Assembly (NCBI GenBank): GCA_020831625.1
Contig: JAFIGD010000003.1
Span: 62,001 to 126,000 of the forward strand
Source: Verrucomicrobiota bacterium
GTDB taxonomy: Bacteria > Verrucomicrobiota > Kiritimatiellia > SS1-B-03-39 > UBA6053
Direction: 5' to 3'
Length of the DNA: 64,000 bases
The position numbers and the translations under genes are program-made. Below are positions 8,336 through 63,913 of the stretch, piece by piece. Below the pieces are notes generated by a model. The model worked only from the letters and a program-made list of their open reading frames with translations. It was not told the origin of the DNA and did no database searches. The first letter of the stretch is position 1. The number at the start of each line of letters is the position of its first letter.

Positions 8336-9067
8336 TCAGTCCCTGCGGCGGAACAACAGCATGGAACCCAGGGCGATTCCGATCAGAACCAGGGTGCCGG
8401 GCTCGGGAATGGCGGTGAGTTCCATGGCGTTGATGTGCTGGGCGTTTACGCCGGAACCCGTCGTGGTGCTTTGAAGAATGATGCTTCCGGATCCGTTGGT
8501 GGAGAGATTGAAAAAGGTATGAACCAGGCCGTCGTCAGGATCTACTAATATTGAAGTTTGGTTCACCCCCGGATTGGCGACCCAGGCATGGGCGTTTCGG
8601 CCTGCGGTATTGGCGGAGAGGATCGAAAGGTTGTAGATCAGGTTGTCGTCCAACCCGGTGAAAATGTATTGCTGCCCCGCTTCGGTATGAAATGTCAGTC
8701 GCCTTTGCGCCGCGTCTGGAATCGCCCCCGATACTGGAAAGGCGCGTGAAGCGTCCGGAGCCTCATTTCTTCCTCCCAAGCCAAAATTTTCTCCGGTGAA
8801 GTTGTCAATTTGAAGACCTACACCTGTATTATCACCATCAGAAAGCCGGATCAGATCCGAAATCAAGGTCAGGGGTGCCGGGTCCGTAATCGATGAATCC
8901 AACGTTGCAACATAATCATTCCAGTTCCCACCAACTGTATTTGCGGACTCTGTGAAATTGATGACCACGGTGTCGCCGACAAGCAAAGCGGCGGAAACGG
9001 GACCGGTGGCAAGCATGCAACCCAGAGCAAGAATCCAAAGGGTTTTCAGTTTGAATGCATTCATCAT
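8336..9067 (-). CDS. PEP-CTERM sorting domain protein, secreted
   Basis: 243 aa. AGGAG lies about 5 nt before the first ATG (9065-9067). A signal peptide ends near PVSAALLVG (about residue 27). The body contains repeated Asn/Thr/Gly-rich strands, and no enzyme motif is evident. The C-terminus, IPEPGTLVLIGIALGS followed by MLLFRRRD, is nearly the same as that of the protein at 1158, so both belong to the same exosortase sorting class. It is transcribed away from the LacI regulator at 9182 with a 114-bp shared upstream region containing a palindrome at 9147-9160, so that regulator may control it. Confidence 0.88.
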   Translation of the reverse strand: MMNAFKLKTLWILALGCMLATGPVSAALLVGDTVVINFTESANTVGGNWNDYVATLDSSITDPAPLTLISDLIRLSDGDNTGVGLQIDNFTGENFGLGGRNEAPDASRAFPVSGAIPDAAQRRLTFHTEAGQQYIFTGLDDNLIYNLSILSANTAGRNAHAWVANPGVNQTSILVDPDDGLVHTFFNLSTNGSGSIILQSTTTGSGVNAQHINAMELTAIPEPGTLVLIGIALGSMLLFRRRD

Positions 9068-9146
9068 GGTGTCTCCTGTGAAGTTAAGGCGGGGTTAATT
9101 TTCGGGAGTATGCCTCAGCGTCGGTGAATGCACAACCGGAATTTAT

Positions 9147-9160
9147 TTGTAACTATACAA
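9147..9160. promoter_or_regulatory. Candidate LacI operator, TTGTA-ACTA-TACAA
   Basis: A perfect 5-4-5 inverted repeat 22 bp before the LacI start at 9182 and 80 bp before the divergent PEP-CTERM gene. Its core (AACTAT) is also the core of the palindrome at 12506-12519 in front of the second LacI gene; 10 of 14 positions agree. Autoregulation is the natural reading. Confidence 0.55.
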
Positions 9161-9181
9161 GAAATCGGATACAGGTGCTGT

Positions 9182-10222
9182 ATGGCGAGTTCAAACAGAC
9201 GAATCACGTTAAAAGAAATCGCGGCGGCGGCGGGAGTGAGCCCGATGACGGTGTCGTATGCGCTGCGGAATCATCCGGCGGTGAACGCGGAGACGGGGCG
9301 GCGGGTGCGGGAGGTGGCGGAGGCGATGGGCTATGCGCCGGATCCGGCGTTGTCGGCGCTGGTGGCGTATCGGACCGGGAACCGCCTCCCCTCGTCGCAC
9401 GGCAGTTTGGCCTGGATCACGGACACACCGGAATCCCGCCGAATCCACGCGTATTTCGAGGAGCCGGTGTTCCGCGCGGCGGCGGCGCGGTCGAAGTCCC
9501 TGGGATACGCGTTGGAAATCTTCCGGCTGGGACCGGGGGAGTACAAAGCCGCTCAACTCGAAAGGCTTTTTCATAGCCGGGGCATTCAGGGGGCGCTGGT
9601 CGCGCCATTGAACGAGCAAAGGGTTTTGGAGGGTATGACCTGGGAAAGGATTTCGGCGGTGGCCATTGGTCGCTCCCTGCGTCAGCCGCGTTTGGATCAT
9701 GTGACCGCCGATCATTTTGAGGCAGGGTACCGTATTTGCGCCACGCTGAAGGAACGCGGATACAGGCGGATCGCGTTTCTCTCGCCCAGCCGCACCGATG
9801 ACCGGGTGCAGCACCGTTTTTACGCCTCGATCCGCGCGGCGGCGCTGGACGGGGAACGCGGGTGGACGCCTCCCTTTCTGATCGGAGAGTCGGATCCCGT
9901 GGTTCTCGCGCGCTTTGTGGAAAAACACCGGCCGGACGCGGTGGTGTCCGATGATCCCGCCGGGCTGGTCTCACTTCGCGCCGCCGGGCTCCGCATTCCG
10001 GAGGATCTGGGATTCGCCTCGACGCGGATTTTTGGTGACGATCACACGATCAGCGGCATCCGACCCGCGATGACGGACATCGGGGAGCGGGCGGTGTCGT
10101 TTTTGCACATGAAGCTGCTGGTGGCCGAGCGCGGCATTCCCGACCGCGCCGCCGGGACGGTGTTTCCGGGGCACTGGCAGGAGGGAGAGACGCTGCGTTT
10201 GTCCGCTTACAATCCGAACTGA
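9182..10222 (+). CDS. LacI-family transcriptional regulator
   Basis: 346 aa from ATG 9182. In-frame codons upstream are less likely because the helix-turn-helix begins only a few residues after this start. RITLKEIAAAAGVSPMTVSY is a canonical LacI helix-turn-helix (about residues 7-27), followed by a hinge helix and a periplasmic-binding-like sensor for a small ligand, probably a sugar. The C-terminus is shorter in motifs than classical LacI, with an XylR-like sensor (AVVSDDPAGL, LGFASTRIFGDDHTISGI). It probably regulates itself and the divergent PEP-CTERM gene through the palindrome at 9147. Its 3' end overlaps the convergent beta-helix gene by 16 bp. Confidence 0.9.
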   Translation: MASSNRRITLKEIAAAAGVSPMTVSYALRNHPAVNAETGRRVREVAEAMGYAPDPALSALVAYRTGNRLPSSHGSLAWITDTPESRRIHAYFEEPVFRAAAARSKSLGYALEIFRLGPGEYKAAQLERLFHSRGIQGALVAPLNEQRVLEGMTWERISAVAIGRSLRQPRLDHVTADHFEAGYRICATLKERGYRRIAFLSPSRTDDRVQHRFYASIRAAALDGERGWTPPFLIGESDPVVLARFVEKHRPDAVVSDDPAGLVSLRAAGLRIPEDLGFASTRIFGDDHTISGIRPAMTDIGERAVSFLHMKLLVAERGIPDRAAGTVFPGHWQEGETLRLSAYNPN

Positions 10223-16650: not shown

Positions 16651-18126
16651 ATGAAGTCCTCGCCGAATGTCCTGATCCTCATGACGGATCAGCACCGATG
16701 GGATTACCTGAGTTGCGTGATCCCGGGCGTGCCGACCCCGAATCTGGACCGTCTGGCCGCGCGCGGCGCGCGGTTTTCCGAAGCGGTGTGCAGTTGCCCG
16801 ATGTGTATTCCCAGCCGTTACAGCGCCTTTACAGGACTGTATCCCTCCCAGTTGGGTGTTCGCAATAACAGTCAGACCATCCAAAATCCGTCGGAGAGTC
16901 CGGTGCCCACGCTGTTTGAGCGTCTACAAGGGGCGGGCTATCACACGATCGGGGCGGGGAAAACGCATTGGACATTGCCCGGCGGCGAGTTTTCGGGGCT
17001 GCAGGCTCCGGCACCGTCCACCCGCGGTTTTGAGCGGCGGTTCATCGGCCGCATGCCTGGCGGTCATGACAGTGAACCCGGTGCCCTGCATTACGGGGAT
17101 GCGGCGGAATATCCTCAAAGAATGCTGGAGATTCGAGAATGGAATGTCGAATGCGGATGGGGCGGGGAGGGGGTTGAGGGCTATCGCGGCCGCACCCTGC
17201 CCGGCGACGGCTCGGATTTGCGCGAGGCCTGGCTGACCGATAAAATGTTGCAGGCGCTGGACGAAGCGCCCGCGGACCGCCCCTGGCTGGGCTATCTGTC
17301 GTTTGACGCGCCGCACGCGCCACTCTTCGCGCCCGGGGCCTGGATGGAGAAAATCGATCCCGGAGCGCTTCCGCTTCCCGATCTCTCCGCGCTTGCCGAC
17401 GAGGATCATTTCCCTCCGCTCCGCCACACCCTGGAGGCCGCCCGGGCCTGGGCGGCGATGCCGGAACGGGAGCAGCGTCTCAGCCTCGCCCGCTATGCCG
17501 CCCTGTGCGCGTATTCCGATCACCAGTTCGGACGCGTGCTCGACTGGCTGGATCAGAGTGGACAGCGGGAAAACACCGTTGTGGTGTTTCTGTCCGATCA
17601 CGGGGAAAGTCTTGGGGACCGGGGGCGTTTCAGCAAGTATTCGCTCTATGAAGAGAGTGTGCGCGTGCCTTTGATTTTGGCCGGTCCCGGTGTGCCGGAG
17701 GGGCAGGTGGATGTCCGTCCCGCCAATCTGATTGATCTGGTTCCCACGCTGCTGCAGGTCTGCGGGGGCGACTGTCCAGCGGAATTACCCGGTGAATCTC
17801 TGCTGCGGCCTCCGGTCCGGAAAGGCGCATTTGCGGAAATGCACGGGAACGGGATGAGTCCCCAGCCCGCGCCGCTTTGGATGTGGCGGACCCCGGAATG
17901 GAAACTGGTGACCGGCGGCCGCGGAAGCTGGCGCGACCAGCGCGAACAGCGGCATCCGCCCGTGCGCGAGCTGTATCATCTGGCCACGGATCCCGGGGAG
18001 CGGATCAACCGTTATGCCGACCCTGCCTGTGCCGGCATCCGCGGCGAACTGCAGGAAGCGCTGCTGGACCACCTGCAGAGCACTCTGGCCGTCTGGCCCC
18101 GCCGGGACGGAGCTCCGGTAGATTGA
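16651..18126 (+). CDS. Type I sulfatase
   Basis: 491 aa. VLILMTDQHRWDYL near the start carries metal-binding Asp13. CSCPMCIPSRYSAFTG contains the sulfatase signature C-x-P-S-R, with Cys52 as the residue converted to formylglycine by a maturase. VVVFLSDHGESLGD provides the second metal-binding block, and GKTHW and DAPHAP are further active-site segments. No clear signal peptide is seen, so export or cytosolic action is unsettled. The enzyme removes sulfate esters from a carbohydrate. It follows the carbohydrate-binding-like protein by 3 bp. The sequence just after its stop is the relic of an SGNH hydrolase. Confidence 0.93.
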   Translation: MKSSPNVLILMTDQHRWDYLSCVIPGVPTPNLDRLAARGARFSEAVCSCPMCIPSRYSAFTGLYPSQLGVRNNSQTIQNPSESPVPTLFERLQGAGYHTIGAGKTHWTLPGGEFSGLQAPAPSTRGFERRFIGRMPGGHDSEPGALHYGDAAEYPQRMLEIREWNVECGWGGEGVEGYRGRTLPGDGSDLREAWLTDKMLQALDEAPADRPWLGYLSFDAPHAPLFAPGAWMEKIDPGALPLPDLSALADEDHFPPLRHTLEAARAWAAMPEREQRLSLARYAALCAYSDHQFGRVLDWLDQSGQRENTVVVFLSDHGESLGDRGRFSKYSLYEESVRVPLILAGPGVPEGQVDVRPANLIDLVPTLLQVCGGDCPAELPGESLLRPPVRKGAFAEMHGNGMSPQPAPLWMWRTPEWKLVTGGRGSWRDQREQRHPPVRELYHLATDPGERINRYADPACAGIRGELQEALLDHLQSTLAVWPRRDGAPVD

Positions 18127-18947: not shown

Positions 18948-20360
18948 TCAGGGCCTTGGCCATTCGCTCACATCCCAGTCGCGGCTTCCCGCGCCGGGGT
19001 GAAGTTGATCCCAGGTATTTACCCGTTGGGGGAGGGGAATGCCGATAGGTTCGGGTTCGAGAAGCGGGTCCCGCGTGTCACGCATCCAGGTGTCGAGTTT
19101 GGTCCGCAGATCCTGCAGGGCATTCCGGATTTCACTCCCCACGTCACCTTCCGCACTCCACACTCCACACTCCGCATTCCGCACTTCGCACTCCGCACTT
19201 CCCAAAAGGTTGCGGCGCTCCATGGGGTCGAAGAGCAGGTCGTAAAGCTCCTCCGGCGGCACCGGACGGTCCGTCATGCCGTGGTCCATGAGGAGGCGTT
19301 TGCTGTGACCGTCGTCGCAGTTGGGCATGACGGTGTTACGGGGGAGCGCGTAATTCCGGATGTAACTCCAGCGCTGGGTGCGGACACAGCGTTTGGGTTC
19401 GAAGGCCGCGTGAAAGGTCACTTCGGTGAACAGTTCATCGCGAACGGTGTCGGTTTTTCCTTCGATGAGCGGAAGCAGGGACCGGCCCTCCAGCCAGGCG
19501 GGCGGATCCACCTTCAGCAGGTCGCAAAGGGTGGGATACACATCCAGATGGCTCACGAGTGAATCGAAGACCCTGCCTTTGCCGGCCCCGCCGGGCAGCC
19601 GCAGAATCAGGAGCACGCCGCTGCCGTGGTGGGTAAGGCTACATTTGTGCTCCGGAAAGGCGATGCCGTGGTCGGTAGTGGCGAGCACCAGGGTGTCATC
19701 GGCGAGTCCGGAGGCGTCGAGGGCCTCGAGAATCCGGCCGTAAAAGCTGTCGAGCCGTTCGACGCTGTGACGGAAATCGAGCCAGTCCCGGCGGGTTTCC
19801 GGACTGTCGGGCAGAATGGCGGGAACCTGGACGTAGTCGGGATTGCCTTCGCCGTCTTTGGGGGAATGGTGCGGCATGTTGAAGCCTTGGCAGACCCATT
19901 CGGTGCGGTGGGTTTCGAGAAAACCGGCGTCCAGAAAGAAGGGGACGGAGCCGTTTTGGCGTTTGAGAAAAGCGACCGCGTCCTCCACCACCAGATTGCC
20001 GTCCTGGTGGTCGTGCCGGGCGGACTCCAGATAGCCGTGCGCTTCGTCGGGACCGCCCACATGGGACAGGCCCGATTTATGCGTGAGAAATCCGTGACCT
20101 TTCAGGAAGTTGGCCAGATGCCGTTCCGGGTATTTCAGGGAGCTGCCCCGGTGGCAGAGGCCGACCATGCCGGCGCCGTGGGCGCTTTGTCCGGTAAGCA
20201 GGGCCGCGCGGCTGGGGGAGCAGGTGGGGGCCGCGCAGTGGGCGTCCCGAAAGAAGCAGCCCTGTTCCGCGAGGTGTTGAAGCGCGGGAGTCCGCACCGG
20301 AACGCCGTGGGGTTGAATGCAGCGTCCGGTGTCGTGGCTGTGCAGGTAGAGGATGTTCAT
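18948..20360 (-). CDS. Type I sulfatase
   Basis: 470 aa starting at MNILYLHSHDTGR (ATG 20358-20360), the usual start for heparan- or N-sulfoglucosamine-type sulfatases; nine more upstream codons add nothing. Cys47 lies in CAAPTCSPSRAALLTG, the formylglycine site (C-S-P-S-R). LVLATTDHGIAFPEHKC is the second metal site, and Asp10 with the following Thr/Gly is the first. The NHDTGR-like start with CSPSRAALLTGQ places it close to sulfatases acting on sulfated glycosaminoglycan-like sugars, but the substrate is not proved. Near the C-terminus (19150-19204) the coding sequence contains an imperfect 7-nt tandem repeat encoding AECEVRNAECGVWSAEG, probably an inserted repeat. Confidence 0.93.
   Translation of the reverse strand: MNILYLHSHDTGRCIQPHGVPVRTPALQHLAEQGCFFRDAHCAAPTCSPSRAALLTGQSAHGAGMVGLCHRGSSLKYPERHLANFLKGHGFLTHKSGLSHVGGPDEAHGYLESARHDHQDGNLVVEDAVAFLKRQNGSVPFFLDAGFLETHRTEWVCQGFNMPHHSPKDGEGNPDYVQVPAILPDSPETRRDWLDFRHSVERLDSFYGRILEALDASGLADDTLVLATTDHGIAFPEHKCSLTHHGSGVLLILRLPGGAGKGRVFDSLVSHLDVYPTLCDLLKVDPPAWLEGRSLLPLIEGKTDTVRDELFTEVTFHAAFEPKRCVRTQRWSYIRNYALPRNTVMPNCDDGHSKRLLMDHGMTDRPVPPEELYDLLFDPMERRNLLGSAECEVRNAECGVWSAEGDVGSEIRNALQDLRTKLDTWMRDTRDPLLEPEPIGIPLPQRVNTWDQLHPGAGSRDWDVSEWPRP
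19150..19204. repeat. CACTCCR/GCACTTC short tandem repeat inside the sulfatase coding sequence
   Basis: A 55-bp tract of 7-nt units (CACTCCA, CACTCCG, CATTCCG, CACTTCG) stays in frame with the sulfatase on the minus strand. It resembles in style the noncoding GAGTGACGA repeats at 23756-23970 and 26017-26052. Confidence 0.65.
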
Positions 20361-20380
20361 TTTGATATGGGTATATGGGT

Positions 20381-20409
20381 TTGACAAAATGGGTGGATGG
20401 TTTTATCAT
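20381..20409 (+). promoter_or_regulatory. Promoter of the vapBC pair
   Basis: TTGACA (20381-20386), a 17-bp spacer and TATCAT (20404-20409) make an almost perfect sigma-70-type promoter. The vapB ATG begins at 20416, 6 nt after the -10 element, so transcription should start at or next to the start codon. The mRNA would then be leaderless. Confidence 0.75.
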
Positions 20410-20415
20410 TATGGG

Positions 20416-20661
20416 ATGAAAACAACCCTTGATCTTTCCGATGCTCTGTTGCTTCGCGCCAAGGCGTTGGCAAAAACGGAGCGGACCACCCTTCGCAATC
20501 TGACGGAAGAGGGGCTTTCCAGGGTTCTCGCGGAGCGGGAATCGCGCGGTTCTGTGAAGCTTAAGCCTGTCACCTTTAAAGGAAACGGTCTGACGCCTGA
20601 ATTTGAGCAGGCGGCCTGGTCTGAGATTCGCGATGCCGCGTATGGAATGGAACGCGGATGA
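20416..20661 (+). CDS. vapB: VapB-type antitoxin
   Basis: 81 aa beginning MKTTLDLSDALLLRAKALA, a ribbon-helix-helix type DNA-binding start as in VapB/DUF2191 antitoxins. The C-terminal half (LKPVTFKGNGLTPEF) is the flexible toxin-binding part. I chose ATG 20416 because it fits the family start and the promoter just upstream. It overlaps the toxin gene by 4 bp (ATGA), the usual arrangement. By family knowledge it neutralises VapC and represses its own promoter, which here lies directly before the start codon. Beyond that I see no extended operator palindrome. Confidence 0.85.
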   Translation: MKTTLDLSDALLLRAKALAKTERTTLRNLTEEGLSRVLAERESRGSVKLKPVTFKGNGLTPEFEQAAWSEIRDAAYGMERG

Positions 20662-21089
20662 TTGCGGTGGACACGAACGTGTTGGTGTATGCTCACCGGG
20701 AAGATTCGCCCTTTCACGGACAGGCGAAAGCCGTTCTGGTGGATTTGGCTGAATCCGGCAAGCGTTGGGGGATTCCGTGGCCCTGCGTGCATGAGTTTAT
20801 TTCCATCTGTACCCACCCGAAAATCTATTCCCCTCCCACGCCCCTGCACCTGGTTCTGAAATCCATGGACATCTGGATGGGCTCTCCACTGTGTGAATTG
20901 CTTCATGAGGGGCCCGGATATTGGGGGAAATTGAAAGAGTTGGCTCAGAAGGGAAATGCGCACGGGGGTATGATTCATGATGCCCGAATCGCCGCGCTTT
21001 GCATTCATCACGGTGTCGCGGAATTGTGGACCTGTGACCGGGATTTCTCCCGTTTTGCAGGATTGAAAACGCGAAATCCGCTTGTTTAA
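20658..21089 (+). CDS. vapC: VapC-type PIN-domain ribonuclease toxin
   Basis: 143 aa. MIAVDTNVLVYAHRED gives the first PIN acidic residue (Asp5). VHEFISICTHP supplies the conserved Glu, and MIHDARIAALCIHHGV with TCDRDFSRF supplies the remaining Asp residues. All are intact, so the nuclease should be active on an RNA target such as a tRNA. Length is normal for the family. It is translationally coupled to vapB by ATGA. Together they make a complete type II toxin-antitoxin module of the sort used for plasmid or island stabilisation and stress response. It should not be confused with the broken vapC at 42946. Confidence 0.9.
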   Translation: MIAVDTNVLVYAHREDSPFHGQAKAVLVDLAESGKRWGIPWPCVHEFISICTHPKIYSPPTPLHLVLKSMDIWMGSPLCELLHEGPGYWGKLKELAQKGNAHGGMIHDARIAALCIHHGVAELWTCDRDFSRFAGLKTRNPLV

Positions 21090-21226: not shown

Positions 21227-22312
21227 TTAGCGCAAATCGGGTCGGGTGTTCTTATCCCAGATTCCGCGCAATTCGGCCAGCAAAACCGTTTCGGAACTTT
21301 TCCCGGCCAGAAACGCGTGCAGGTGTTCGCCGGCGGTTTCCTGAAAGGCGTTCCAGCCGGGGACGCGGGGGCGGAGGAAAGCCTGTTCAAGCGTGTCGCG
21401 CAGATCGCGGAAGAACGGGATGCCGGAGTGCCAGGCGTTGCCGTGGGCGGGCTGACCCTGGTGCTGCAGGTAGGGGCCGCTTTGACAGGCTCCCGAGCAC
21501 AGCCAGGCCGCGGCGCGGATCGCGGCGGGTTCGGTACAGCGGGATGAAACCGCCAGACCCGCTCCGCCGAGCAGGGCGTGGCGGCGGCCGGGAACGGGCC
21601 CGAAGCGAAGGGTGTCGGCATAATGAATGTAGCAGAAGGCCAGCGGGCAATATGCGATGTCGTCGTGCGCGCACATGTGCTCGTAGAGCTGAACGGGATT
21701 CATCTCCAGTGATCCGGGATGGGCTTGTTTCTTCAGTCGTTGCAACAGGTGAAGCACCTCCGCCACCCGGGGATCCTGAAGAAAGCGTCCCTCCCCGTCG
21801 GCGGGCATTCCGGCCTGGGCGCAGAGAGTGAGAAAGCAGCAGAAGACATCGGTGGGGCAAAGCGGTATCGCGAAGGAGAGACCGGAGGACAGAAGCGCCT
21901 CCCAGCTTTCCGGAAAACGGTCGGTCAGATCGGGCCGGAGGCAGGCGCTTTGCATGGCGGCGTCGATCGGCAGGGCCCAGAGGTGACCGTCAAGCTGATA
22001 CGAATCCAATGAAGGGCCGACGGGATTCGCGGTAATCTCCTGCCATTCCTCCGGGGTGAGCAGGGTGTCCAGCGGCAGCAGCGCCCCGTCGCGCGCCGCC
22101 TGACCGCAGTGCGGGTGATCGATGATGAGCAGATCGAAGCGCTCCGCCAGTTCGGTGACCGACGTGTCGCCGAATTCGCGCAGCGATCGGCGGGTCCATT
22201 CAATCCGGCAACCGAAACGCAACTCAATTTGCGGTGACAGGGCCTCAAGCGGGGCATACCCGCGCGGATGATCCCAGGTGATGCCCTGAAAGACTGGGGG
22301 TTCTAAATTCAT
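21227..22312 (-). CDS. Solute-binding-protein-like protein without signal peptide
   Basis: 361 aa beginning MNLEPPVFQGITWDHPRGYAPLEAL. The body follows the extracellular solute-binding protein fold: FDLLIIDHPHCGQAA, DGHLWALPIDAAMQSACLRPD and the FxxDPRVAEVLHLLQ helix. There is no signal sequence or lipobox, so it should remain in the cytosol. I recall similar proteins with the ITWDHPRGY start beside CaiB-type CoA-transferases and enoyl-CoA hydratases in other bacteria, and that is also its context here. It may sense or carry an aromatic or organic acid rather than serve an ABC importer; no permease is nearby. The start overlaps the nucleotidyltransferase stop (ATGA). A neighbouring frame stays open past the stop to 21154, so a 3' frameshift is possible. 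Confidence 0.7.
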   Translation of the reverse strand: MNLEPPVFQGITWDHPRGYAPLEALSPQIELRFGCRIEWTRRSLREFGDTSVTELAERFDLLIIDHPHCGQAARDGALLPLDTLLTPEEWQEITANPVGPSLDSYQLDGHLWALPIDAAMQSACLRPDLTDRFPESWEALLSSGLSFAIPLCPTDVFCCFLTLCAQAGMPADGEGRFLQDPRVAEVLHLLQRLKKQAHPGSLEMNPVQLYEHMCAHDDIAYCPLAFCYIHYADTLRFGPVPGRRHALLGGAGLAVSSRCTEPAAIRAAAWLCSGACQSGPYLQHQGQPAHGNAWHSGIPFFRDLRDTLEQAFLRPRVPGWNAFQETAGEHLHAFLAGKSSETVLLAELRGIWDKNTRPDLR

Positions 22313-22791
22313 AGTTCTAAAAACAGGAGGTCCTGTAGATCCTTTGGCCTCCCACTTGCCAACTTGTTTTTTCGGAGTTCCGCTTTTCCAATATAACAGA
22401 GAGGAAACGTAGTTGTGGATAGCATCATAGAAAGTTCAATACGGTTTTCCCATGCCTCAGAAAACGAAACCCCGTCGATTTGATTCAAAAGGTCAATTCG
22501 ATTTGGGGGCATGCCAAACTGAATAATTTCACCCGATTTGAAATCATTTGGAGACATGACCCCAGGAATATCTCCGCCCCAAAAATCACCTAAAGCAGTG
22601 TAAAGTCGATTCAAATTTTTTGGGTCGATGTTGTAAAAAACATCAATGTCGCCAGTTAGTCTCGCATGGCCATGAAAGATCACGGCCTCACCGCCGACAA
22701 TCAAGAATTCAACCTGATGCTTTGAAAGAATCGAAAGGAACTCCTCGACATCGTTGGAAAAATAACCCGGTCCTATTTCTTTTGAACCCAT
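22309..22791 (-). CDS. Minimal nucleotidyltransferase, AbiEii/DUF6036-like
   Basis: 160 aa from ATG 22791. FLIVGGEAVIFHGHARLTGDIDVF is the nucleotidyltransferase signature, with GG at residues 33-34 and the metal-binding D-x-D at Asp48/Asp50. It is followed by a helical part with LLNQIDGVSF and LASGRPKDLQDLLFL, typical of AbiEii-like or DUF6036 toxins and tRNA-modifying transferases. A 56-aa partner gene overlaps its start by 19 bp. The local base composition is clearly more AT-rich than the flanking genes, suggesting recent acquisition into the CoA operon. The likely role is the toxin or effector half of a two-gene toxin-antitoxin-type cassette. Confidence 0.8.
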   Translation of the reverse strand: MGSKEIGPGYFSNDVEEFLSILSKHQVEFLIVGGEAVIFHGHARLTGDIDVFYNIDPKNLNRLYTALGDFWGGDIPGVMSPNDFKSGEIIQFGMPPNRIDLLNQIDGVSFSEAWENRIELSMMLSTTTFPLCYIGKAELRKNKLASGRPKDLQDLLFLEL

Positions 22792-22943
22792 TCGCGCAAA
22801 TCCTTTCTGGGAAGAGGATAAAAACGGTCCTTCAAGGACTTGGCAATGCGGCGGCGTTGTTCCGGGGTCATCGCAATCTGTTGCGCCTGATCCCACGCAT
22901 CCGCTTCCGCGAATGAACTGGCTTTATTGACGATACGTTCCAT
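22773..22943 (-). CDS. 56-aa partner of the nucleotidyltransferase, antitoxin-like
   Basis: A short gene from ATG 22941-22943 to TAG 22773-22775. The product starts MERIVNKASSFAEADAWDQA and continues with MTPEQRRRIAKSLKDRFYP and KDLREWVQKK. The SFAEADAWD...MTPEQRRRIAKxLKxRFY pattern is, from memory, the common small protein encoded just before AbiEii/DUF6036 nucleotidyltransferases. It is charged and helical with no membrane segment. Its 3' end overlaps the transferase start by 19 bp, so the two are translated together. The role is inferred as antitoxin or chaperone of the transferase. Confidence 0.75.
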   Translation of the reverse strand: MERIVNKASSFAEADAWDQAQQIAMTPEQRRRIAKSLKDRFYPLPRKDLREWVQKK

Positions 22944-22960
22944 GAGTTATTTATATACTG

Positions 22961-23755
22961 TCAGAGGCTTGAGATCAAGTTTTCCCGCTTTTTCTCCCGC
23001 TCCCGGTCCAGGCTTTTCTGTAAAAACTCCTTCAGTTTCGCCTGTGCGGGTTCGGCGCGGTAGAGGCGGGCCAGGGTTTCGTTTTCCAGACACTGGGCGG
23101 CGCTGTTGACGGGTCCGCAGGCGATGCGGCTGAGCTGCTTGAGCACCCGCAGGGCTTCGGGATCCTTGTCGGCGAATTGCCCGGCGAATTCCATGACCGA
23201 TTCCGCGAACCCTTCGGCGGGGAAGATGCGGTTGAGCAGTCCCCGGGCAAAAAACTCCCCGGCGGTGGCGGTGCGTCCGCTCATCAGCAGTTCGTTGGCG
23301 AAACTGTGTCCGAGTTTCTTGGGCAGGCGCTGGGTGCCGCCGCCGCCGGGAATGAGGTGCAATAGAATCTCCGGCAGGCCCATCTTCGCGCCCTCCACCG
23401 CCACCAGCATGTCGCAGGCAAGGGCAATTTCCAAGCCGCCGCCGAAGGCGTGTCCGTTGATGGCGGCGATGACGGGCTTGGAGAGGCCTTCAATGGCGTC
23501 GTACACGCGCCGTCCCAGCACCTGGAAGGATTCAAATTCCTCCCGGGTCTGGCGGGCATATTCTTTGATGTCCGCTCCGGCCATGAAGGCTCGGCCGTTT
23601 CCGGTGATGACCAGCACGCGGATCTCCGCGTCCTGATTGACCCGGTCCAGCGTGGCGATGATCCCCTCCATCATTTCCCGGTTCATGGCGTTGAGCTGCG
23701 CGGGACGGTTGAAGGTGAGGGTGGCGATATGGTCGGTGGTGGTGAATGATATCAT
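22961..23755 (-). CDS. Enoyl-CoA hydratase/isomerase family protein
   Basis: 264 aa, full length for the crotonase family. The oxyanion-hole segments are present: GNGRAFMAGADIKEY (about residues 53-65) and NGHAFGGGLEIALACD. GLPEILLHLIPGGGGTQRL carries the catalytic Glu of hydratases. It should hydrate a 2-enoyl-CoA to a 3-hydroxyacyl-CoA or catalyse a related step. In the same-strand array it follows a CaiB CoA-transferase, an SMP-30 lactonase-like gene and an SDR dehydrogenase. This suggests a pathway in which an acid is activated by CoA transfer and degraded. A 222-bp repeat tract separates it from the SMP-30 gene. Confidence 0.92.
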   Translation of the reverse strand: MISFTTTDHIATLTFNRPAQLNAMNREMMEGIIATLDRVNQDAEIRVLVITGNGRAFMAGADIKEYARQTREEFESFQVLGRRVYDAIEGLSKPVIAAINGHAFGGGLEIALACDMLVAVEGAKMGLPEILLHLIPGGGGTQRLPKKLGHSFANELLMSGRTATAGEFFARGLLNRIFPAEGFAESVMEFAGQFADKDPEALRVLKQLSRIACGPVNSAAQCLENETLARLYRAEPAQAKLKEFLQKSLDREREKKRENLISSL

Positions 23756-23970
23756 GAGGGGAGTGACGAGTGTGTGGAGTGACGAGTGACGAATGACGAG
23801 TGACGAATGACGGGAGCGCCAATCTCCGCATTGGCGGGGCGAAGGGGGGAGAGGGAGTGACGAGTGACGAGTGACGAATGACGAGTGTGTGGAGTGACGA
23901 GTGACGAATGATGAGTGACGAGTATGTGGAGTGACGAGTGACGAATGAGGAATGTGTGAGTGAAGAATGA
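23756..23970. repeat. GAGTGACGA short repeat tract
   Basis: About 215 bp made of imperfect GAGTGACGA, GAATGACGA and TGTGTGGAGTGACGA units, interrupted near 23822 by CGCCAATCTCCGCATTGGCG, an inverted-repeat segment. All frames through it give Arg/His/Ser-rich nonsense (RHSSLVT units). It sits between the SMP-30 and enoyl-CoA hydratase genes. A short piece of the same repeat is at 26017-26052. Confidence 0.85.
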
Positions 23971-23977
23971 CGAGTGG

Positions 23978-24814
23978 TTATTCTGCACTCAACTCGATTT
24001 TTGTGAGATGCCAGCCGCCGAGGTTGGCGGAGAAGAGTTCGTGTGGGCCGCGGAAGGCGAGGTTGGTGCTGTGGTGCAGGAGGTCGGTGGCGGGGTCTTC
24101 GATGAGCAGTTCCAGTGTCTGCCGCGCGAAGGACCAGCGGAGGATGCGGGTGGGATTGTAGATGGAAATGTAGAGGTCCCCGTTCGGATGAAAGGCGAGT
24201 CCGTCGGGTTCATCGCCGGGCAGGGAGAGAAAGGCTTCCTTGGGGCCGGCGCGTCCGTCCGCGAGGATCGGCACGCGGGTCACGCCGGGCAGATGACTTT
24301 CCACGAGATACAGCATGTCGCCGGACGGACTGAGGGCGAGTCCGTTGGCGGAAAGACAGTCCTCCGCCATCCATAATTCGCCATGGGCGGTTTGCAGATC
24401 AAAGCGGAAAATGCCCGGACCGCCGGCGCGGCAGGTGTTGGACACGTAGAGAAACCGTTCATCCCTGGAGAGCACTGCATAGTTGGGGAGTGTCAGGCCT
24501 TCACAGTTGAGTCTGGCGAGGTGATCTCCCTGGTCATCGACTACAAACACCGCCTGATGGTGCAGATCGCAGAGATAGAGGCGGTGTTGGGAGTCCATGG
24601 CAATGCCGAGGAGGAACCCGCCGGTGCAGGCGACGGTTTCGATGTGCAGCCCGTCGGCGGAGATGTGGTACAGTTCGCCCGCCTCGCCGCCACACCAGAG
24701 CGAGCCGTCGCGCGGATCCACGCAGAGGCCTTCGGGATGGTTGAGGCGCTGGGCGTGTAGAATTCCTCCGCAAAAGACGGAGGCGTGTTGGTGGAGATCC
24801 AACAGCGGATTCAC
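23978..24814 (-). CDS. SMP-30/gluconolactonase-like beta-propeller
   Basis: 278 aa from GTG 24812-24814, which overlaps the CaiB stop as GTGA and has CAGGAG 7-8 nt upstream. Six propeller-like repeats are visible: LNHPEGLCVDPRDGSLWCG, LLGIAMDSQHRLYLCD, LSANGLALSPSGDMLYL and PDGLAFHPNGDLYISI. The metal-binding Glu (HPEG) and the Asn and Asp residues of SMP-30 (NGLALS, DGLAFH) are in place, as expected for a divalent-metal lactonase. In context it could open a lactone intermediate of the acid pathway. No signal peptide is present, so it should be cytosolic. Confidence 0.85.
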   Translation of the reverse strand: MNPLLDLHQHASVFCGGILHAQRLNHPEGLCVDPRDGSLWCGGEAGELYHISADGLHIETVACTGGFLLGIAMDSQHRLYLCDLHHQAVFVVDDQGDHLARLNCEGLTLPNYAVLSRDERFLYVSNTCRAGGPGIFRFDLQTAHGELWMAEDCLSANGLALSPSGDMLYLVESHLPGVTRVPILADGRAGPKEAFLSLPGDEPDGLAFHPNGDLYISIYNPTRILRWSFARQTLELLIEDPATDLLHHSTNLAFRGPHELFSANLGGWHLTKIELSAE

Positions 24815-26016
24815 GCGCCGGGCTCCTGCACGGTGAGGGTTCCGGCGCGTTCGAGTTCGGCAATCGCCTCTGCGTTCCAGCCCAGATCCCGCAGAATTTC
24901 GCGGCCGTGCTGCCCCACCAGCGGCGCGGGCCGCCGGATGCTGCCGGGGGTTTCGCTCATTTTGAAGGGAATGTTGGTGATTTTCACGCGGCCGGCGCGG
25001 GGGTGATCGATCTCGGTGAAGGCCTGCAAGTGGCGGACCTGCGGATCGTCGGCCACATCGTTGAGTTCCAGCGCCGGAGCGCACCAGATGTCCAGCGCCA
25101 GCATGATGTCGAGCCATTCGGCGGTGGTTTTCACGCGGATCCGCGTCTGCAACTCCCCGTAGATTTCATCGCGGCGGTCAAAGAGCACCTGCGGATCATC
25201 GTAGGCATCCAGCGCGGAATCGTTCAGCGCCGCTTTGATCTTGGCCCAGGGGTTCATGGCAATGGAGAGCCAGCCGTCGGCGGTCTGGTAAATGCCGAAG
25301 GGCGCGCCGTTGCCGGGGTGGGCGATGCCGGATTCGGGACGTTCAAACCCGCGGCCGAGATTGTGCACCGTGAAAAAATCCTGCATTTCAAAGGCGAGGA
25401 CGCTTTGGAGGAGATTCACCTCGATGCGCTGTCCTTTGCCCATGCGTTCCCGGGCGAAGAGGGCCGCAAGAATGCCCTGGGAGAGATGCATGGCCCCCAA
25501 CTGATCACTCAAGGCGGTGCCGATGGCCACGGGGCCGTCCGACTTTTTGCCGCTGGCGAAGACCGCGCCGCTGAGGCCCTGCACCAGCAGATCCTGGCCG
25601 GGGCGCTTGGCGTAGGGCCCGTCGGGTCCCCACCCGGTGGCGGAGGCGTAGATGATCCGCGGATTGATTCTGCGGAAATCCTCATAGCCGAAGCCCAGCT
25701 TGTCCATCACCCCCGGACGAAAATTCTCCACCACCACATCCGCGGTCTCTGCCAGCTTGTACAGAATCTCCTTCGCCGCCGGCGCTTTCAGATCGATGGC
25801 CAGCGAACGCTTGTTGCGGTTCCAGGGAAGAAAACAGGGGCTTTCCCCGTCTCCGATCCATTCATTAAAAAAGGTCATGGACCGGTAGAGATCCCCGGTG
25901 CCGGGTTTTTCGATTTTGATCACCTCCGCGCCGAGATCCCCCAGCATTTGGGTGGCGTAGGGCCCCTGCAGGAGCTGGGTGAAGTCGAGGATTGTGATGT
26001 TGTCTAGGGCGTGCAT
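24811..26016 (-). CDS. CaiB/BaiF family (class III) CoA-transferase
   Basis: 401 aa from ATG 26014-26016; the start MHALDNITILDFTQLLQGPYATQMLGDLGA is the classic CaiB N-terminus. EVIKIEKPGTGD, NKRSLAIDLKAP and VENFRPGVMDKLGFGYE follow in the usual order, and SDQLGAMHLSQGILAAL holds the Asp that forms the acyl-anhydride. It moves CoA between acyl-CoA donors and acids without free CoA, in the cytosol. It overlaps the SMP-30 gene (GTGA) and is followed by enoyl-CoA hydratase. It is probably the activating step of the operon. The acid is not identifiable from sequence. Confidence 0.93.
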   Translation of the reverse strand: MHALDNITILDFTQLLQGPYATQMLGDLGAEVIKIEKPGTGDLYRSMTFFNEWIGDGESPCFLPWNRNKRSLAIDLKAPAAKEILYKLAETADVVVENFRPGVMDKLGFGYEDFRRINPRIIYASATGWGPDGPYAKRPGQDLLVQGLSGAVFASGKKSDGPVAIGTALSDQLGAMHLSQGILAALFARERMGKGQRIEVNLLQSVLAFEMQDFFTVHNLGRGFERPESGIAHPGNGAPFGIYQTADGWLSIAMNPWAKIKAALNDSALDAYDDPQVLFDRRDEIYGELQTRIRVKTTAEWLDIMLALDIWCAPALELNDVADDPQVRHLQAFTEIDHPRAGRVKITNIPFKMSETPGSIRRPAPLVGQHGREILRDLGWNAEAIAELERAGTLTVQEPGA

Positions 26017-26052
26017 GGAAAAGTGACGAGTGTTGAGTGACGAGTGTCGAGT
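26017..26052. repeat. Short GAGTGACGA repeat copy
   Basis: The 36 bp before the CoA-transferase start repeat the units AAGTGACGAGTGTTGAG and TGACGAGTGTCGAGTG, as in the larger tract at 23756-23970. It separates the CoA-transferase from the SDR gene and occupies the place where a ribosome site would be expected. Confidence 0.7.
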
Positions 26053-26072
26053 GGAAGCAGTTCGGTACGTAG

Positions 26073-26846
26073 TTATACTCTCGGCAGACAGCAAAGCCCG
26101 CCTTCGACCTTGAGGTCGTGGCCGGTGATGAAGCTGGCGGAGGGCGAGCAGAGGAAAAGGGCGGCGTCGGCGACTTCCCGCGGGGTGCCGGTGCGTCCGA
26201 GGGCGTGCATGCGGGCCCACTCCTCGCGGAGCTGTTCGCCCTCGGCGGCGACGCGGCGCTCATTCATGGGGGTGTCGATGGCTCCGGGGCTGATGGCGTT
26301 CACGCGGATATTGAAGGGGCCCAACTGACCCGCCAGCTGGGTGGTCATGGCCAGCAGTCCTCCTTTGGCGGCGGCGTAGGCGGTCCAGTTTTCCCAGCTC
26401 CGGTGCGCCTGGGTGGAGGCGATGTTGAGGATACAGCCCGCCTGGCGTTCTTTCATGCCCGGAAGCACCGCGCGGATCAGGCGGAAGGCGCTGCTCAGGT
26501 TGGTGGAGATCACCCGGTCCCAGTCCGCGTCGGGCATGGAGGCCGGATCCCCGGAAATGGCCACCGCCGCATTGTTCACGAGGATGTCCACGCGGTCAAA
26601 CGCGCGAAACGCTTCCTCGACGGCCGCGTTCACCGCGTCACTGGAGGATACATCCGCGGTCAGGGGCAGGGTGCGGACTCCGTGCCTGGCGGCGAGGGTT
26701 TGCGCCAGTGCGGCGTTTGCCTCCGCCTGCACATCCAGCAGGACCAGGTCCGCACCCGCTTCGGCGAAGCGGGCGGCGATCGCGGCGCCGATGCCGTCGG
26801 CGGCGCCGGTGATGAGGGCAATCTGTGTATCGAGCGGTCTGATCAT
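26073..26846 (-). CDS. Short-chain dehydrogenase/reductase
   Basis: 257 aa from ATG 26844-26846. The nucleotide-binding TGAADGIG (residues 14-20) and NNAA (91-94) are intact, and the catalytic triad is Ser144 (NIASTQ), Tyr157 and Lys161 (YAAAK). The C-terminus INAISPGAIDTPM and FITGHDLKVEGG is typical of classical SDRs. Asp38 after the second strand (LVLLDVQ) favours NAD(H). It is the first gene of the minus-strand CoA operon and probably oxidises a hydroxyacid or sugar-alcohol substrate before CoA activation. Its start is 66 bp from the divergent LacI gene, whose palindrome at 26881 could regulate both. Confidence 0.92.
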   Translation of the reverse strand: MIRPLDTQIALITGAADGIGAAIAARFAEAGADLVLLDVQAEANAALAQTLAARHGVRTLPLTADVSSSDAVNAAVEEAFRAFDRVDILVNNAAVAISGDPASMPDADWDRVISTNLSSAFRLIRAVLPGMKERQAGCILNIASTQAHRSWENWTAYAAAKGGLLAMTTQLAGQLGPFNIRVNAISPGAIDTPMNERRVAAEGEQLREEWARMHALGRTGTPREVADAALFLCSPSASFITGHDLKVEGGLCCLPRV

Positions 26847-26911: not shown

Positions 26912-27958
26912 ATGCCTCGAATCAAACAAAAAGATATCGCCGATGCGCTTGGGGTGCATGTCACCACGGTGTCAAAGGCACTGAAAAATCATCCCGGCGT
27001 GGCGGAGGCCACGCGTTTGCGGGTGATGGAGGCCGCGGAGAAGATGGGGTATCGGCCGGACCCTGTTTTGCAGTCTCTGGTGGCGTACCGACAGCGGAAC
27101 GCGTCTCCCGTCTACCGGGCGACCCTGGCCTGGTTTTGCAATTATCCGGAGGGCTCGGACATGCGGGTACACGCCGGATATGACGATTATCTGGCGGGGG
27201 CGCGGGAGGAGGCGGACCGTTTGGGCTATCGGCTGGATGTGTTTCACAATCCCGGAGATCCCCGGAACCCCGCCCCGGTGTTCCGCACCCTCCGCGCCCG
27301 CGGCATCCGGGGAATGGTCCTTGCGCCCCAGGCCTGTCCGGGGGTGGACATCGCGCATGATTTCGCGGATTTTTCCGTGGTCACGATCGGATTCACCCTG
27401 ACCGCGCCGCGGGTTCATCTGGTGACCAACGATCATTTCGGCACCATGCTGACGATGGTGGAGCGGGTGCGGGCGCTGGGGCATGTCCGTCCCGGCGCGT
27501 ATCTCAGCGAAGTGGACAATCACCGCATGGGCCGGCGGGCGCGCGGGGCGCTGGAGAGTTACAGCCGGGACCGCCGTCTGCCGGTGCTGCGATACGAGAC
27601 CCCGTCCCGCAAAGCGTTTCTGGACTGGCTGCGCCGACATCCGGGACTGGACGCGCTCATCACCCGCGAGGAGCGCGCCGCTGCCTGGCTGCGGCAGGCG
27701 TGTCGGCCTTTGCCCGTCTACAACTACGCGCTCTCCTCCCCGGATGGCCCCGGGCCCGGCATGTACCACAACAACCGCCGCATCGGCTCCGCCGCCGTCG
27801 ATCTCCTCGCCCGCATGATTTCCCGCAATGAAACCGGGATTCCCGACTTCCCGCTGCGGGTGATGCTCGACAGCCTGTGGGTTCCGGCTCCGGCTGTCCG
27901 GGTTTCGTTACAAGACGGCGGGCAGCTCCAGGGAGCGGATTTCGTGGGGACGGAATGA
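26912..27958 (+). CDS. LacI-family transcriptional regulator
   Basis: 348 aa. MPRIKQKDIADALGVHVTTVSKAL is a LacI helix-turn-helix, followed by the hinge helix RVMEAAEKMGYRPDP and a ligand-sensor domain ending in HNNRRIGSAAVDLLARMI, a typical LacI C-terminal segment. It is divergent from the SDR/CaiB operon with a 65-bp gap and convergent with the GH38 mannosidase gene. The last 51 bp of its coding sequence overlap the 3' end of that gene on the other strand. It probably represses the CoA operon, the mannosidase or both. Confidence 0.92.
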   Translation: MPRIKQKDIADALGVHVTTVSKALKNHPGVAEATRLRVMEAAEKMGYRPDPVLQSLVAYRQRNASPVYRATLAWFCNYPEGSDMRVHAGYDDYLAGAREEADRLGYRLDVFHNPGDPRNPAPVFRTLRARGIRGMVLAPQACPGVDIAHDFADFSVVTIGFTLTAPRVHLVTNDHFGTMLTMVERVRALGHVRPGAYLSEVDNHRMGRRARGALESYSRDRRLPVLRYETPSRKAFLDWLRRHPGLDALITREERAAAWLRQACRPLPVYNYALSSPDGPGPGMYHNNRRIGSAAVDLLARMISRNETGIPDFPLRVMLDSLWVPAPAVRVSLQDGGQLQGADFVGTE

Positions 27959-61078: not shown

Positions 61079-63913
61079 ATGCAGCAAACGCATTTAATTG
61101 TTCAGGGCGCACGCGAGCACAACCTCAAAAATGTGGATGTGACCTTTCCGCGTGACGCGGTGGTGGTGATCACGGGGTTGAGCGGGTCGGGCAAATCGTC
61201 ACTGGCTTTCGACACGATTTTCGCCGAAGGTCAGCGGAAATATGTTGAGAGTTTGTCGGCGTACGCGCGGCAGTTTCTGGATCAGATGCAAAAGCCGGAT
61301 GTGGATCACATCGAGGGCCTTTCGCCGGCGATTTCGATTGAGCAGCGGACGGCGGGTTCGAATCCCCGTTCGATTGTGGCCACCACCACGGAGATTTATG
61401 ATTATCTGCGCCTGCTGTATGCGAGCATCGGCATCCAGCATTGTCCGAAGTGCGGCAAACCGCTGACGCGTCAGTCGGCGGAGGATATCATCAATCTGCT
61501 GATGGATCTTCCCGCCAAAACGCGGGTGATGATTCTGACGCCCTATGTGGACGGCCGCAAAGGCGAGCATTTGGAGGTTTTTCAGGATATTCGCAATCAG
61601 GGTTTTGTGCGGGCGCGGGTGGACGGCAAAGTTCTGGAGCTGGATGATGTGCCGGCGTTGAACAAGAAAACTAAACACAGTATTGACGCGGTGGTGGATC
61701 GGTTGATGATTGACGGGAAGGTCCGTTCCCGTCTGGCGGACAGTGTGGAGCTGGCGCTGCGGTTGGGCAAAGGGCGGATGACGGCCATGGTGGAGGACGG
61801 CAACGGCGGGTTCACGGATCAGTTTTTCAGCGAGGAGTTCGCCTGCATTCCCTGCGGGTTGAGTTTCGAGAAACTGGAGAACCGTCACTTTTCGTTCAAC
61901 AGTCCGTATGGCGCCTGTCCGCGCTGCGCGGGGCTGGGGAGTTTGGAGATTTTTGATGAGGCGCTGCTGGTGCCGAATCCGGAGCTGTCGCTGGAGGAGG
62001 GGGCGGTGGATGTGTGGAAGCGGGGCGGCCGACGGGTGATTTTGTGGTATAAGAAGCTGTTGCGCGGAGTGGCGGAGGCGTACGGGGTGTCGATGGACAC
62101 CCCCTATCATAAACTGCCCGCGAAATTCCGGCGGGTGCTGATGGAGGGCTCCGGGGATGAGATTGTGGAAATGAGCCTGTACCGCGGCGGACGGAAGCTG
62201 AAATACGACAAGCCGTTCGAGGGGGTGATTCCCAATCTGGAGCGCCGGATGCGGGAGACGGAAAGTGATTACACGCGGCAGCGTTTGCGGGAATACATGG
62301 CGAAAAAGCCCTGTCCGGCCTGCGGAGGCGCCCGCTTGAAGGAGGCTTCGCTGGCATGCACGGTCGCGGACAAAAATATTCATCAGGTCTGCACATTGTC
62401 GGTGAAAAACGCCCTGGCGTTTTTTGAGGGGCTGACCCTGGGGGAGACCGAGGCGCGGATTGTGAAGGAGGTGCTGAAAGAGATTCAGCACCGGCTCAGA
62501 TTTTTGAATGATGTGGGACTGGATTATTTGACCCTGGACCGGGAAAGTGGCAGCCTTTCCGGCGGTGAGGCGCAGCGGATCCGTTTGGCCTCGCAGGTGG
62601 GGTCGGGACTGATGGGGGTTCTGTATGTGTTGGACGAGCCCAGTATCGGGCTGCATCAGCGGGACAATCTGAAGCTGATCCACACGATGAAGGGCTTGCG
62701 GGACAGCGGCAACACGGTTTTGGTGGTGGAACACGACGAGGAAACGATCCGCGAGGCCGACTATGTGATTGATATGGGGCCGCTGGCCGGCCGGCACGGC
62801 GGTGAAGTGGTGTTTTCCGGGCTGCCTAAAGATTTGCTGAAGGCGAAGGGGTCTTTGACGGCGGACTACCTGAACGGAAAGCGAAAAATTCCGGTGCCGG
62901 AAACCCGTAAAAAGCCTTCGCGAAAAGCGGTGACAATTCAGGGGGCCTTGGAAAACAACCTCAAGAACGTGGACGTGAAAATTCCGCTGGGGGTCTTTAC
63001 CTGTGTGACCGGGGTGAGCGGAAGCGGAAAGTCGACCCTGGTGGATCAGATCCTGAAACGGGCGTTGTTTCAGAAATTTTTCGGATCAAAAGACGTGCCC
63101 GGAAAGCACAAGAAGATCAACGGTTTACAGCATATTGACAAGGTGATTGTGATCGACCAGAGCCCGATCGGGCGCACGCCGCGATCGAATCCGGCGACGT
63201 ACACGGGGGCGTTTAATTTGATTCGGGATCTGTTTGCGAAGCTGCCGGCAAGTCAGGTTCGGGGATATGGTCCGGGTCGGTTCAGTTTCAATGTGAAAGG
63301 CGGGCGGTGTGAAAGCTGCAAAGGGGACGGGTTGAGGCGGATTGAGATGCATTTTCTGCCGGACGTGTATGTGACCTGCGAGGTGTGTGAAGGGCGGCGG
63401 TACAACCGGGAAACGCTGGAGGTGCGCTACAAGGGTAAAAATATCTCGGATGTGTTGGACATGACCGTTGAGGACGCGCTGGGCTTTTTTGAGAAGGTTC
63501 CTGGTCTGCAGCGCAAGCTGCAGACGCTGGTGGATGTGGGCCTGGGTTATTTGCAGGTGGGTCAGCCCGCGACCACGCTTTCGGGCGGGGAGGCGCAGCG
63601 GGTGAAACTGGCGACGGAGTTGAGCAAGCGGGACACCGGCAATACCTTATATATCCTCGATGAACCGACAACGGGACTGCATTTCGCGGATGTGGACAAA
63701 CTGCTGGAGGTTCTGTTGCGTCTGCGGGACGCGGGGAATTCACTGCTGGTGATCGAGCACAATCTGGATGTGATCAAGACAGCGGACTGGATTATTGACC
63801 TGGGGCCGGAAGGGGGTGAAGGTGGGGGTGAACTGATCGCGGCAGGCACGCCGGAGGAGGTCGCGCAGGTCAAACGCTCCTATACCGGTCAGTTTCTGGC
63901 GGAAATGTTATGA
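61079..63913 (+). CDS. uvrA: Excinuclease ABC subunit A
   Basis: 944 aa, normal length. Two ABC ATPase halves are present: Walker [10 protein letters not shown] (residues 33-41) and GVSGSGKST. Signature [15 protein letters not shown] and [15 protein letters not shown] are both intact, each followed by [13 protein letters not shown] and [13 protein letters not shown]. Four zinc-type CxxC clusters are seen ([24 protein letters not shown], and CESCKGDG with CEVCEGRR). It finds DNA lesions with UvrB and starts nucleotide excision repair in the cytosol. It follows sppA by 14 bp and probably shares its promoter. No lexA-type box was evident. Confidence 0.98.

Follow-up and report, generated by a model that had tools for sequence, protein, structure and literature searches.

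The question raised by one gene cluster in a Verrucomicrobiota genome is why a protein with the fold of a transport receptor should be encoded, without an export signal, among enzymes that handle coenzyme A (CoA) thioesters. The stretch of DNA analyzed here, referred to as the window, comprises 64,000 nucleotides (positions 62,001 to 126,000 of contig JAFIGD010000003.1, assembly GCA_020831625.1). The protein in question, which together with its relatives is designated SBPL, is a solute-binding-fold protein of 361 amino acids (aa) encoded on the minus strand at window positions 21227-22312. An earlier sequence-only reading of this region had placed it in a CoA-dependent acid pathway and offered three roles for it, namely a sensor, a substrate carrier, or a new enzyme reusing the fold. 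The comparative analysis described below demonstrates that SBPL is inherited beside one particular CoA-transferase lineage in at least 11 bacterial phyla, and this pairing suggests that sugar acids may be activated with CoA in a manner not yet described.

Relatives were collected by scanning 84,980 species genomes, which yielded at least 572 encoded relatives, and the best 80 loci were kept. These represent 43 genus-level units in 11 phyla, a set that is skewed towards the closer kin of the query and in which the constant presence of SBPL follows from the way the loci were chosen. Taken alone, the SBPL sequence falls below every Pfam cut-off (SBP_bac_1, E 0.1, 13 bits, with the cut-off at 26), and Pfam and NCBIfam scans with the single sequence assign it to no family. 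The AlphaFold2 model, with a predicted local distance difference test score (pLDDT) of 96 and a predicted template modelling score (pTM) of 0.93, displays the two-lobed type II binding-protein fold, and a Foldseek search with it against the PDB returns more than 1000 matches at E ≤ 0.001, headed by sugar-binding proteins at E 1e-18 to 1e-16. Additionally, a profile of 36 SBPL relatives finds the trehalose/maltose-binding protein 1eu8 at E 1e-21, and the strongest SBP_bac_8 score among alignment members is E 6e-13. Model, structural search, and profile thus bear out the solute-binding fold originally claimed for this open reading frame (ORF).

The claim that the protein has no signal peptide is confirmed as well. 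In the model the first β-strand occupies residues 7-13, leaving no room for a signal peptide, with the motif GITWDHPRGY at residues 10-19. Judged by N-terminal length and hydrophobicity, neither a signal peptide nor a lipobox is present in 102 relatives, in which the TWDHPRG motif is preceded by a median of 10 residues. The N-terminal hydrophobicity of SBPL relatives does not exceed 1.32, compared with 1.6-3.1 in nine of ten secreted binding proteins of the same loci, the start of the tenth, which lies outside that range, being annotated inside the protein; longer readings of SBPL ORFs overrun the upstream gene in a different frame. It is therefore strongly supported that SBPL is a cytosolic protein with a sugar-binding-protein fold whose export signal has been lost.

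Public annotation describes members of the family as extracellular or carbohydrate ATP-binding cassette (ABC) solute-binding proteins. The NCBI name 'extracellular solute-binding protein' and the presence of ABC sugar importers in some SBPL clusters would favor an ordinary ABC receptor with a missed or non-classical export signal, or a decaying former receptor. However, the importers of those clusters come with dedicated binding proteins, which mostly carry a signal, MFS transporters are found instead in the Bacteroidota clusters examined, the SBPL gene overlaps or abuts a same-strand neighbor in many loci, and conservation over eleven phyla argues against decay. A same-strand ABC permease lies within 3 kb of SBPL in 5 of the 80 loci and, counted by genus, in 5 of 43; of the five loci, four encode an additional binding protein and one (L032) is a contig of 5.5 kb. 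In the window, the nearest ABC permease gene noticed is located at 38-40 kb, approximately 11 kb outside the cluster, and belongs by sequence to another system, in agreement with the initial statement that no permease is nearby. Homologues mostly carrying signal peptides beside ABC permeases, the picture that would have spoken against a cytosolic binding protein in a CoA pathway, did not emerge from the neighborhood survey (signals in 0 of 102, a permease in 5 of 80). Lacking both a signal peptide and a permease of its own, SBPL was rejected as an ABC receptor, a reading that is largely refuted and is now regarded as highly improbable.

The neighbor that SBPL does keep is CaiB, a class III CoA-transferase. 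A CaiB-type gene is found within 8 kb of SBPL in 41 of the 43 genera, and in 37 it shares the strand of SBPL at a distance of no more than 3 kb, while in 53 of the 80 loci the two genes are separated by a same-strand gap of no more than 60 bp. Among 195 Verrucomicrobiota genomes, CaiB is present in 15 and SBPL in 9, all of them within the 15; the chance of such co-occurrence is approximately 5e-12 by genome and 3e-8 by genus, both figures being inflated by shared ancestry. In the phylogenetic tree, all 72 SBPL-linked CaiB domains, originating from many phyla, are split from eight unlinked CaiBs, sampled from Verrucomicrobiota only, with a Shimodaira-Hasegawa-like approximate likelihood ratio test (SH-aLRT) value of 95, and three of these eight come from genomes that also carry a linked CaiB. 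The proposal that every CaiB requires SBPL was rejected on account of the same 8 Verrucomicrobiota CaiB loci without SBPL.

The CaiB of the window (24811-26016, minus strand; PF02515, E 4e-110) is classed as a class III CoA-transferase by its CoA_transf_3 domain and by its catalytic Asp, located in a GQD motif and retained in all 140 aligned CaiB domains covering the position. Its nearest counterparts in the PDB are chains of succinate-HMG and formyl-CoA transferases, and the score against the L-carnitine CoA-transferase model (135.5 bits) is below the cut-off of 413. The genome contains one CaiB and one SBPL, and no other class III CoA-transferase was found in it. Because the constant neighbor is CaiB, the role of substrate carrier or partner fits best among the three originally proposed, with the sensor and the new enzyme remaining as rivals. 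Binding proteins often serve as sensors, and the transcription regulator near SBPL varies (LacI, IclR, and others) while the constant partner is CaiB, which would be compatible with a ligand sensor or buffer that binds an intermediate and regulates CaiB or shields the CoA thioester without presenting the substrate. A pure sensor should, however, be dispensable in some lineages, an expectation to be read with the sampling of loci through SBPL in mind, and this role is considered unlikely.

The residues conserved in SBPL bear on what it might bind. Positions without variation in the 36-sequence alignment include G10, W13, H15, R17, G18, W39, D60, D65, H66, and P67, as well as D117, A119, Q277, G286, Q287, P288, W294, R314, and P315. 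In a HMMER alignment, R314 falls on R356 of an alpha-glycoside-binding protein (mutated in 6jam, R356A) and A119 on D118 of the same protein (mutated in 6jai), and D65 is paired with an Asp of 1eu8; going by the PDB titles, these aligned positions are taken to be ligand-site residues. The matches of R314 and D65, together with the replacement of D118 by Ala, suggest a ligand site that has been kept but rebuilt, with H15, R17, H66, and D117 as extra invariants. In comparison with ABC sugar-binding proteins of the trehalose/maltose type (SBP_bac_1/SBP_bac_8; 1eu8 TMBP, LpqY, MalE3, SmoF), SBPL shares the full-length fold (TM-score approximately 0.75-0.82), is akin by profile, and matches the ligand-site Arg, whereas it is without a signal peptide and a permease partner, adjoins CaiB, carries TWDHPRG at its extreme N-terminus, and has Ala in place of the acidic sugar ligand.

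Several of these features could also belong to a pathway enzyme built on the solute-binding fold, such as a lyase, an epimerase, or a hydrolase with the sugar acid or its CoA thioester as substrate. The polar residues H15, R17, D65, H66, and D117 are invariant, the segments around D65 and D117 contain ligand-site residues in homologous binding proteins, the canonical acidic ligand residue has been exchanged for an invariant Ala, and SBPL is constant where the other steps are exchangeable, although the loci were found through SBPL. Cytosolic reuse of the binding-protein fold has precedents in the enzymes MqnA, MqnD, and NMT1/Thi5, to which SBPL is comparable in this respect; SBPL itself belongs to the maltose-binding protein (MBP)-type subclass, which is not known to include an enzyme, and no MqnA, MqnD, or NMT1 Pfam match at E ≤ 0.1 was obtained for 20 SBPL members. 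SBPL also matches no Pfam or NCBIfam enzyme family, and its nearest structures are all transport proteins, so that an enzymatic role, while possible, is judged rather improbable.

The remaining genes of the clusters indicate which acid might be activated. Near SBPL, the 43 genus-level units have a MaoC hydratase only in 25 cases, an enoyl-CoA hydratase (ECH, crotonase family) only in 13, both in none, and neither in 5, with at least seven MaoC/ECH switches on the SBPL tree. Two unrelated enzymes of the same chemistry occupying one slot point to a step that would hydrate or dehydrate a CoA thioester. The catalytic Glu pair is kept in 26 of 26 aligned crotonases, including that of the window (22961-23755, minus strand; PF00378, E 6e-53; E109 and E129). 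The lactonase slot is filled recurrently by three unrelated families, SMP-30, Amidohydro_2, or PF10282, and an SDR or Gfo/Idh dehydrogenase is near SBPL in 67 of 80 loci (84%). Many SBPL clusters contain rhamnose or fucose genes, and rhamnose mutarotase, GH106 alpha-L-rhamnosidase, GH95, and sugar transporters are found in related clusters. MaoC-type clusters, marked by rhamnose mutarotase, GH106, sugar importers, or MFS permeases, appear to be deoxysugar clusters, and the combination of sugar dehydrogenase, lactonase, mutarotase, alpha-L-rhamnosidase, and LacI regulator makes it most likely that the acid is an aldonate derived from a sugar. Of the designation 'CoA-dependent acid pathway', the tie between a cytosolic binding-fold protein and CoA enzymes has stood, whereas the clusters themselves look like sugar catabolism.

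For the crotonase type, to which the window belongs, near relatives offer only hints on the sugar (GH95, sulfatase, KdgT). Sulfatases encoded at 16651-18126 in the window and at 11244-13049 in L027 are 58% identical, and their position close to the cluster in two distinct Verrucomicrobiota hints at a sulfated sugar source. In the same-genus cluster L103, a KdgT-type 2-keto-3-deoxygluconate permease is encoded at 8362-9591, approximately 2.5 kb from the LacI gene.

CaiB and crotonases usually act on non-sugar carboxylic acids, and an AMP-ligase occurs near two plasmid loci, which would be compatible with the degradation of, for example, an aromatic or carnitine-like acid by clusters whose sugar genes are incidental. 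Against this, the AMP-ligase is near only 1 of the 80 loci, SDR or Gfo/Idh dehydrogenases are near 67, and lactonases, mutarotase, and rhamnosidase recur; a non-sugar substrate accordingly seems quite unlikely.

The reading preferred here, to which about an even chance of being correct is attached, is that SBPL acts in the cytosol as a sugar-acid-binding partner to a dedicated CoA-transferase, with a sugar-acid-CoA being formed and then dehydrated by the hydratase. A sugar-binding fold that lost its export would have been turned into the partner of one class III CoA-transferase lineage. An SDR or Gfo/Idh dehydrogenase would oxidize the sugar to a lactone, which a lactonase (SMP-30, Amidohydro_2, or PF10282) would open to the sugar acid; CaiB and SBPL would then transfer CoA to this acid, SBPL binding and presenting the polyhydroxylated molecule, and the ECH or MaoC hydratase would remove water from the CoA thioester. 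Finally, the CoA would be passed to another acid molecule, in analogy to the cycle of CaiB and CaiD in carnitine metabolism. In carnitine dehydration, the class III CoA-transferase CaiB and the crotonase CaiD act together and CoA is recycled. SBPL clusters have the same two enzyme families as neighbors, with catalytic residues retained, but add a sugar dehydrogenase, a lactonase, a sugar regulator, and a binding-fold protein, and their hydratase may be a MaoC. Within this scheme, gene context is the source of the proposed sugar-acid binding, complex formation, step order, and nature of the sugar, whereas the fold, the missing signal, the CaiB linkage, the separate CaiB branch, the mutually exclusive hydratases, and the catalytic residues of CaiB and crotonase are results of the analysis.

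A related arrangement involves SBP1x, a second and different signal-less SBP_bac_1 protein (L038 13442-14722, L018 1423-2610, L110 11380-12582), which is found in Bacteroidota and in some Pseudomonadota, Thermomicrobiota, and Verrucomicrobiota clusters. Among 74 loci, two CaiB genes are present in 35 of 37 with SBP1x and in 4 of 37 without it. Though the rule is not strict, SBP1x and a second CaiB provide another instance of CaiB enzymes joined by a protein with the binding fold. A strict rule of one binding protein per CaiB was weakened on inspection: the counts are equal in 66 of 74 loci, but mostly within a single clade, and seven loci outside it depart from the rule. Tandem fused CaiB-CaiB proteins of approximately 770-820 aa are encoded in L028, L033, L034, L101, L107, and L108. 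Fused CaiB pairs occur in Hymenobacter, and two relatives from the class of the window have them too. Several relatives thereby resemble two-subunit class III CoA-transferases such as benzylsuccinate CoA-transferase (PDB 9fn0) and SmtAB in having paired or fused CaiBs, whereas the window has one CaiB and SBPL is not a CaiB-fold subunit. A more far-reaching version of the proposal, in which SBPL and CaiB form a two-component, sugar-acid-specific CoA-transferase that uses a former transport receptor for substrate recognition and feeds a widespread and so far undescribed aldonate-CoA dehydration pathway, is possible but doubtful.

A number of observations weigh against the partner model. The 1:1 ratio of binding protein to CaiB is broken in L058, L077, L081, L092, L107, L108, and L110, the plasmid locus L015 has SBPL without CaiB, and no SBPL-CaiB fusion was found, the long ORFs being over-extended readings. 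Where 6jai has the acidic sugar ligand D118, SBPL invariantly has Ala, which raises the possibility of a ligand other than a plain sugar. MR_MLE or UxuA dehydratases also occur in some SBPL clusters, where they would make CoA-dependent dehydration redundant, and a family I CoA-transferase without any hydratase is found in certain clusters from Acidobacteriota and Chloroflexota; both kinds of cluster are a poor simple fit to the model. The family I enzyme (PF01144) is a fused protein in the hydratase-free clusters L041 (8259-9995) and L045 (6886-8805).

The non-phosphorylated L-rhamnose/L-fucose pathway consists of a dehydrogenase, a lactonase, a dehydratase, and an aldolase. A study from 2013 on rhamnose pathways in bacteria (PMC3870299) describes the four-enzyme rhamnose scheme, and neither 'CoA' nor 'MaoC' appears in its text. 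SBPL clusters share dehydrogenase and lactonase families with the non-phosphorylated pathway, and related clusters also hold mutarotase and rhamnosidase, whereas the described scheme has no room for CaiB, the hydratase, or SBPL; no dedicated sugar-acid dehydratase or aldolase is present among the window operon genes. No account of SBPL with CaiB was found in the open-access literature searched. A big and widespread family annotated as extracellular transport receptors is indicated by the present evidence to work inside the cell. Should the pairing prove functional, CoA-transferases would gain a type of partner new to them, and a route through CoA, missing from the described pathways, would be indicated for rhamnose and similar sugars. 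Since carriers of SBPL include S. meliloti and cultured Pedobacter species, the idea is directly testable.

In the window, ORF and Pfam analyses confirm the SDR, CaiB, SMP-30, and enoyl-CoA hydratase genes on the minus strand, in the order, from upstream to downstream, SDR (26073-26846; PF13561, E 3e-71), CaiB, SMP-30/gluconolactonase-family protein (23978-24814; PF08450, E 3e-16), hydratase, a two-gene insert, and SBPL. A LacI-family regulator (26912-27958, plus strand; PF00356, E 3e-13) diverges from the operon and adjoins the cluster in L103-L106 and L027. The tight, partly overlapping packing reported earlier holds for CaiB and SMP-30, whose stop and GTG start overlap in GTGA, the most likely starts being 24814 for SMP-30, rather than the mechanical ORF start at 25117, and 26016 for CaiB. 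It does not hold for the SDR-CaiB and SMP-30-hydratase gaps, which are filled by heptad repeats (26022-26053 and 23760-23976) with the plus-strand units GAGTGAC/GAATGAC; the repeat 12-mer CACTCGTCACTC has 254 copies in the genome, and its reversed control has none.

Nor does SBPL directly follow the hydratase, as the sequence-only reading had it. A DUF6036 nucleotidyltransferase gene (22309-22791, minus strand; PF19502, E 7e-8), absent in L103 and L104, and a 56-aa ORF upstream of and overlapping it (22773-22943, minus strand) intervene, forming an insert at 22309-22943 that sits exactly at the hydratase/SBPL junction and lies outside the conserved cluster. In L103 the order is LacI, SDR, CaiB, hydratase, and SBPL, with SMP-30 sequence between CaiB and hydratase; both inserted genes are missing there, and hydratase and SBPL overlap by ATGA. 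On this comparison the pair looks like a recent intruder in the window genome, and the SBPL gene was probably coupled ancestrally to the hydratase gene. PADLOC gives only weak, AbiEii-like matches for the inserted nucleotidyltransferase and no match for the 56-aa ORF, and four weaker relatives of the nucleotidyltransferase are encoded elsewhere in the genome. Beyond SBPL, at 20353-21089, a gene for a VapC-family toxin (TIGR00028) is preceded by a small partner gene.

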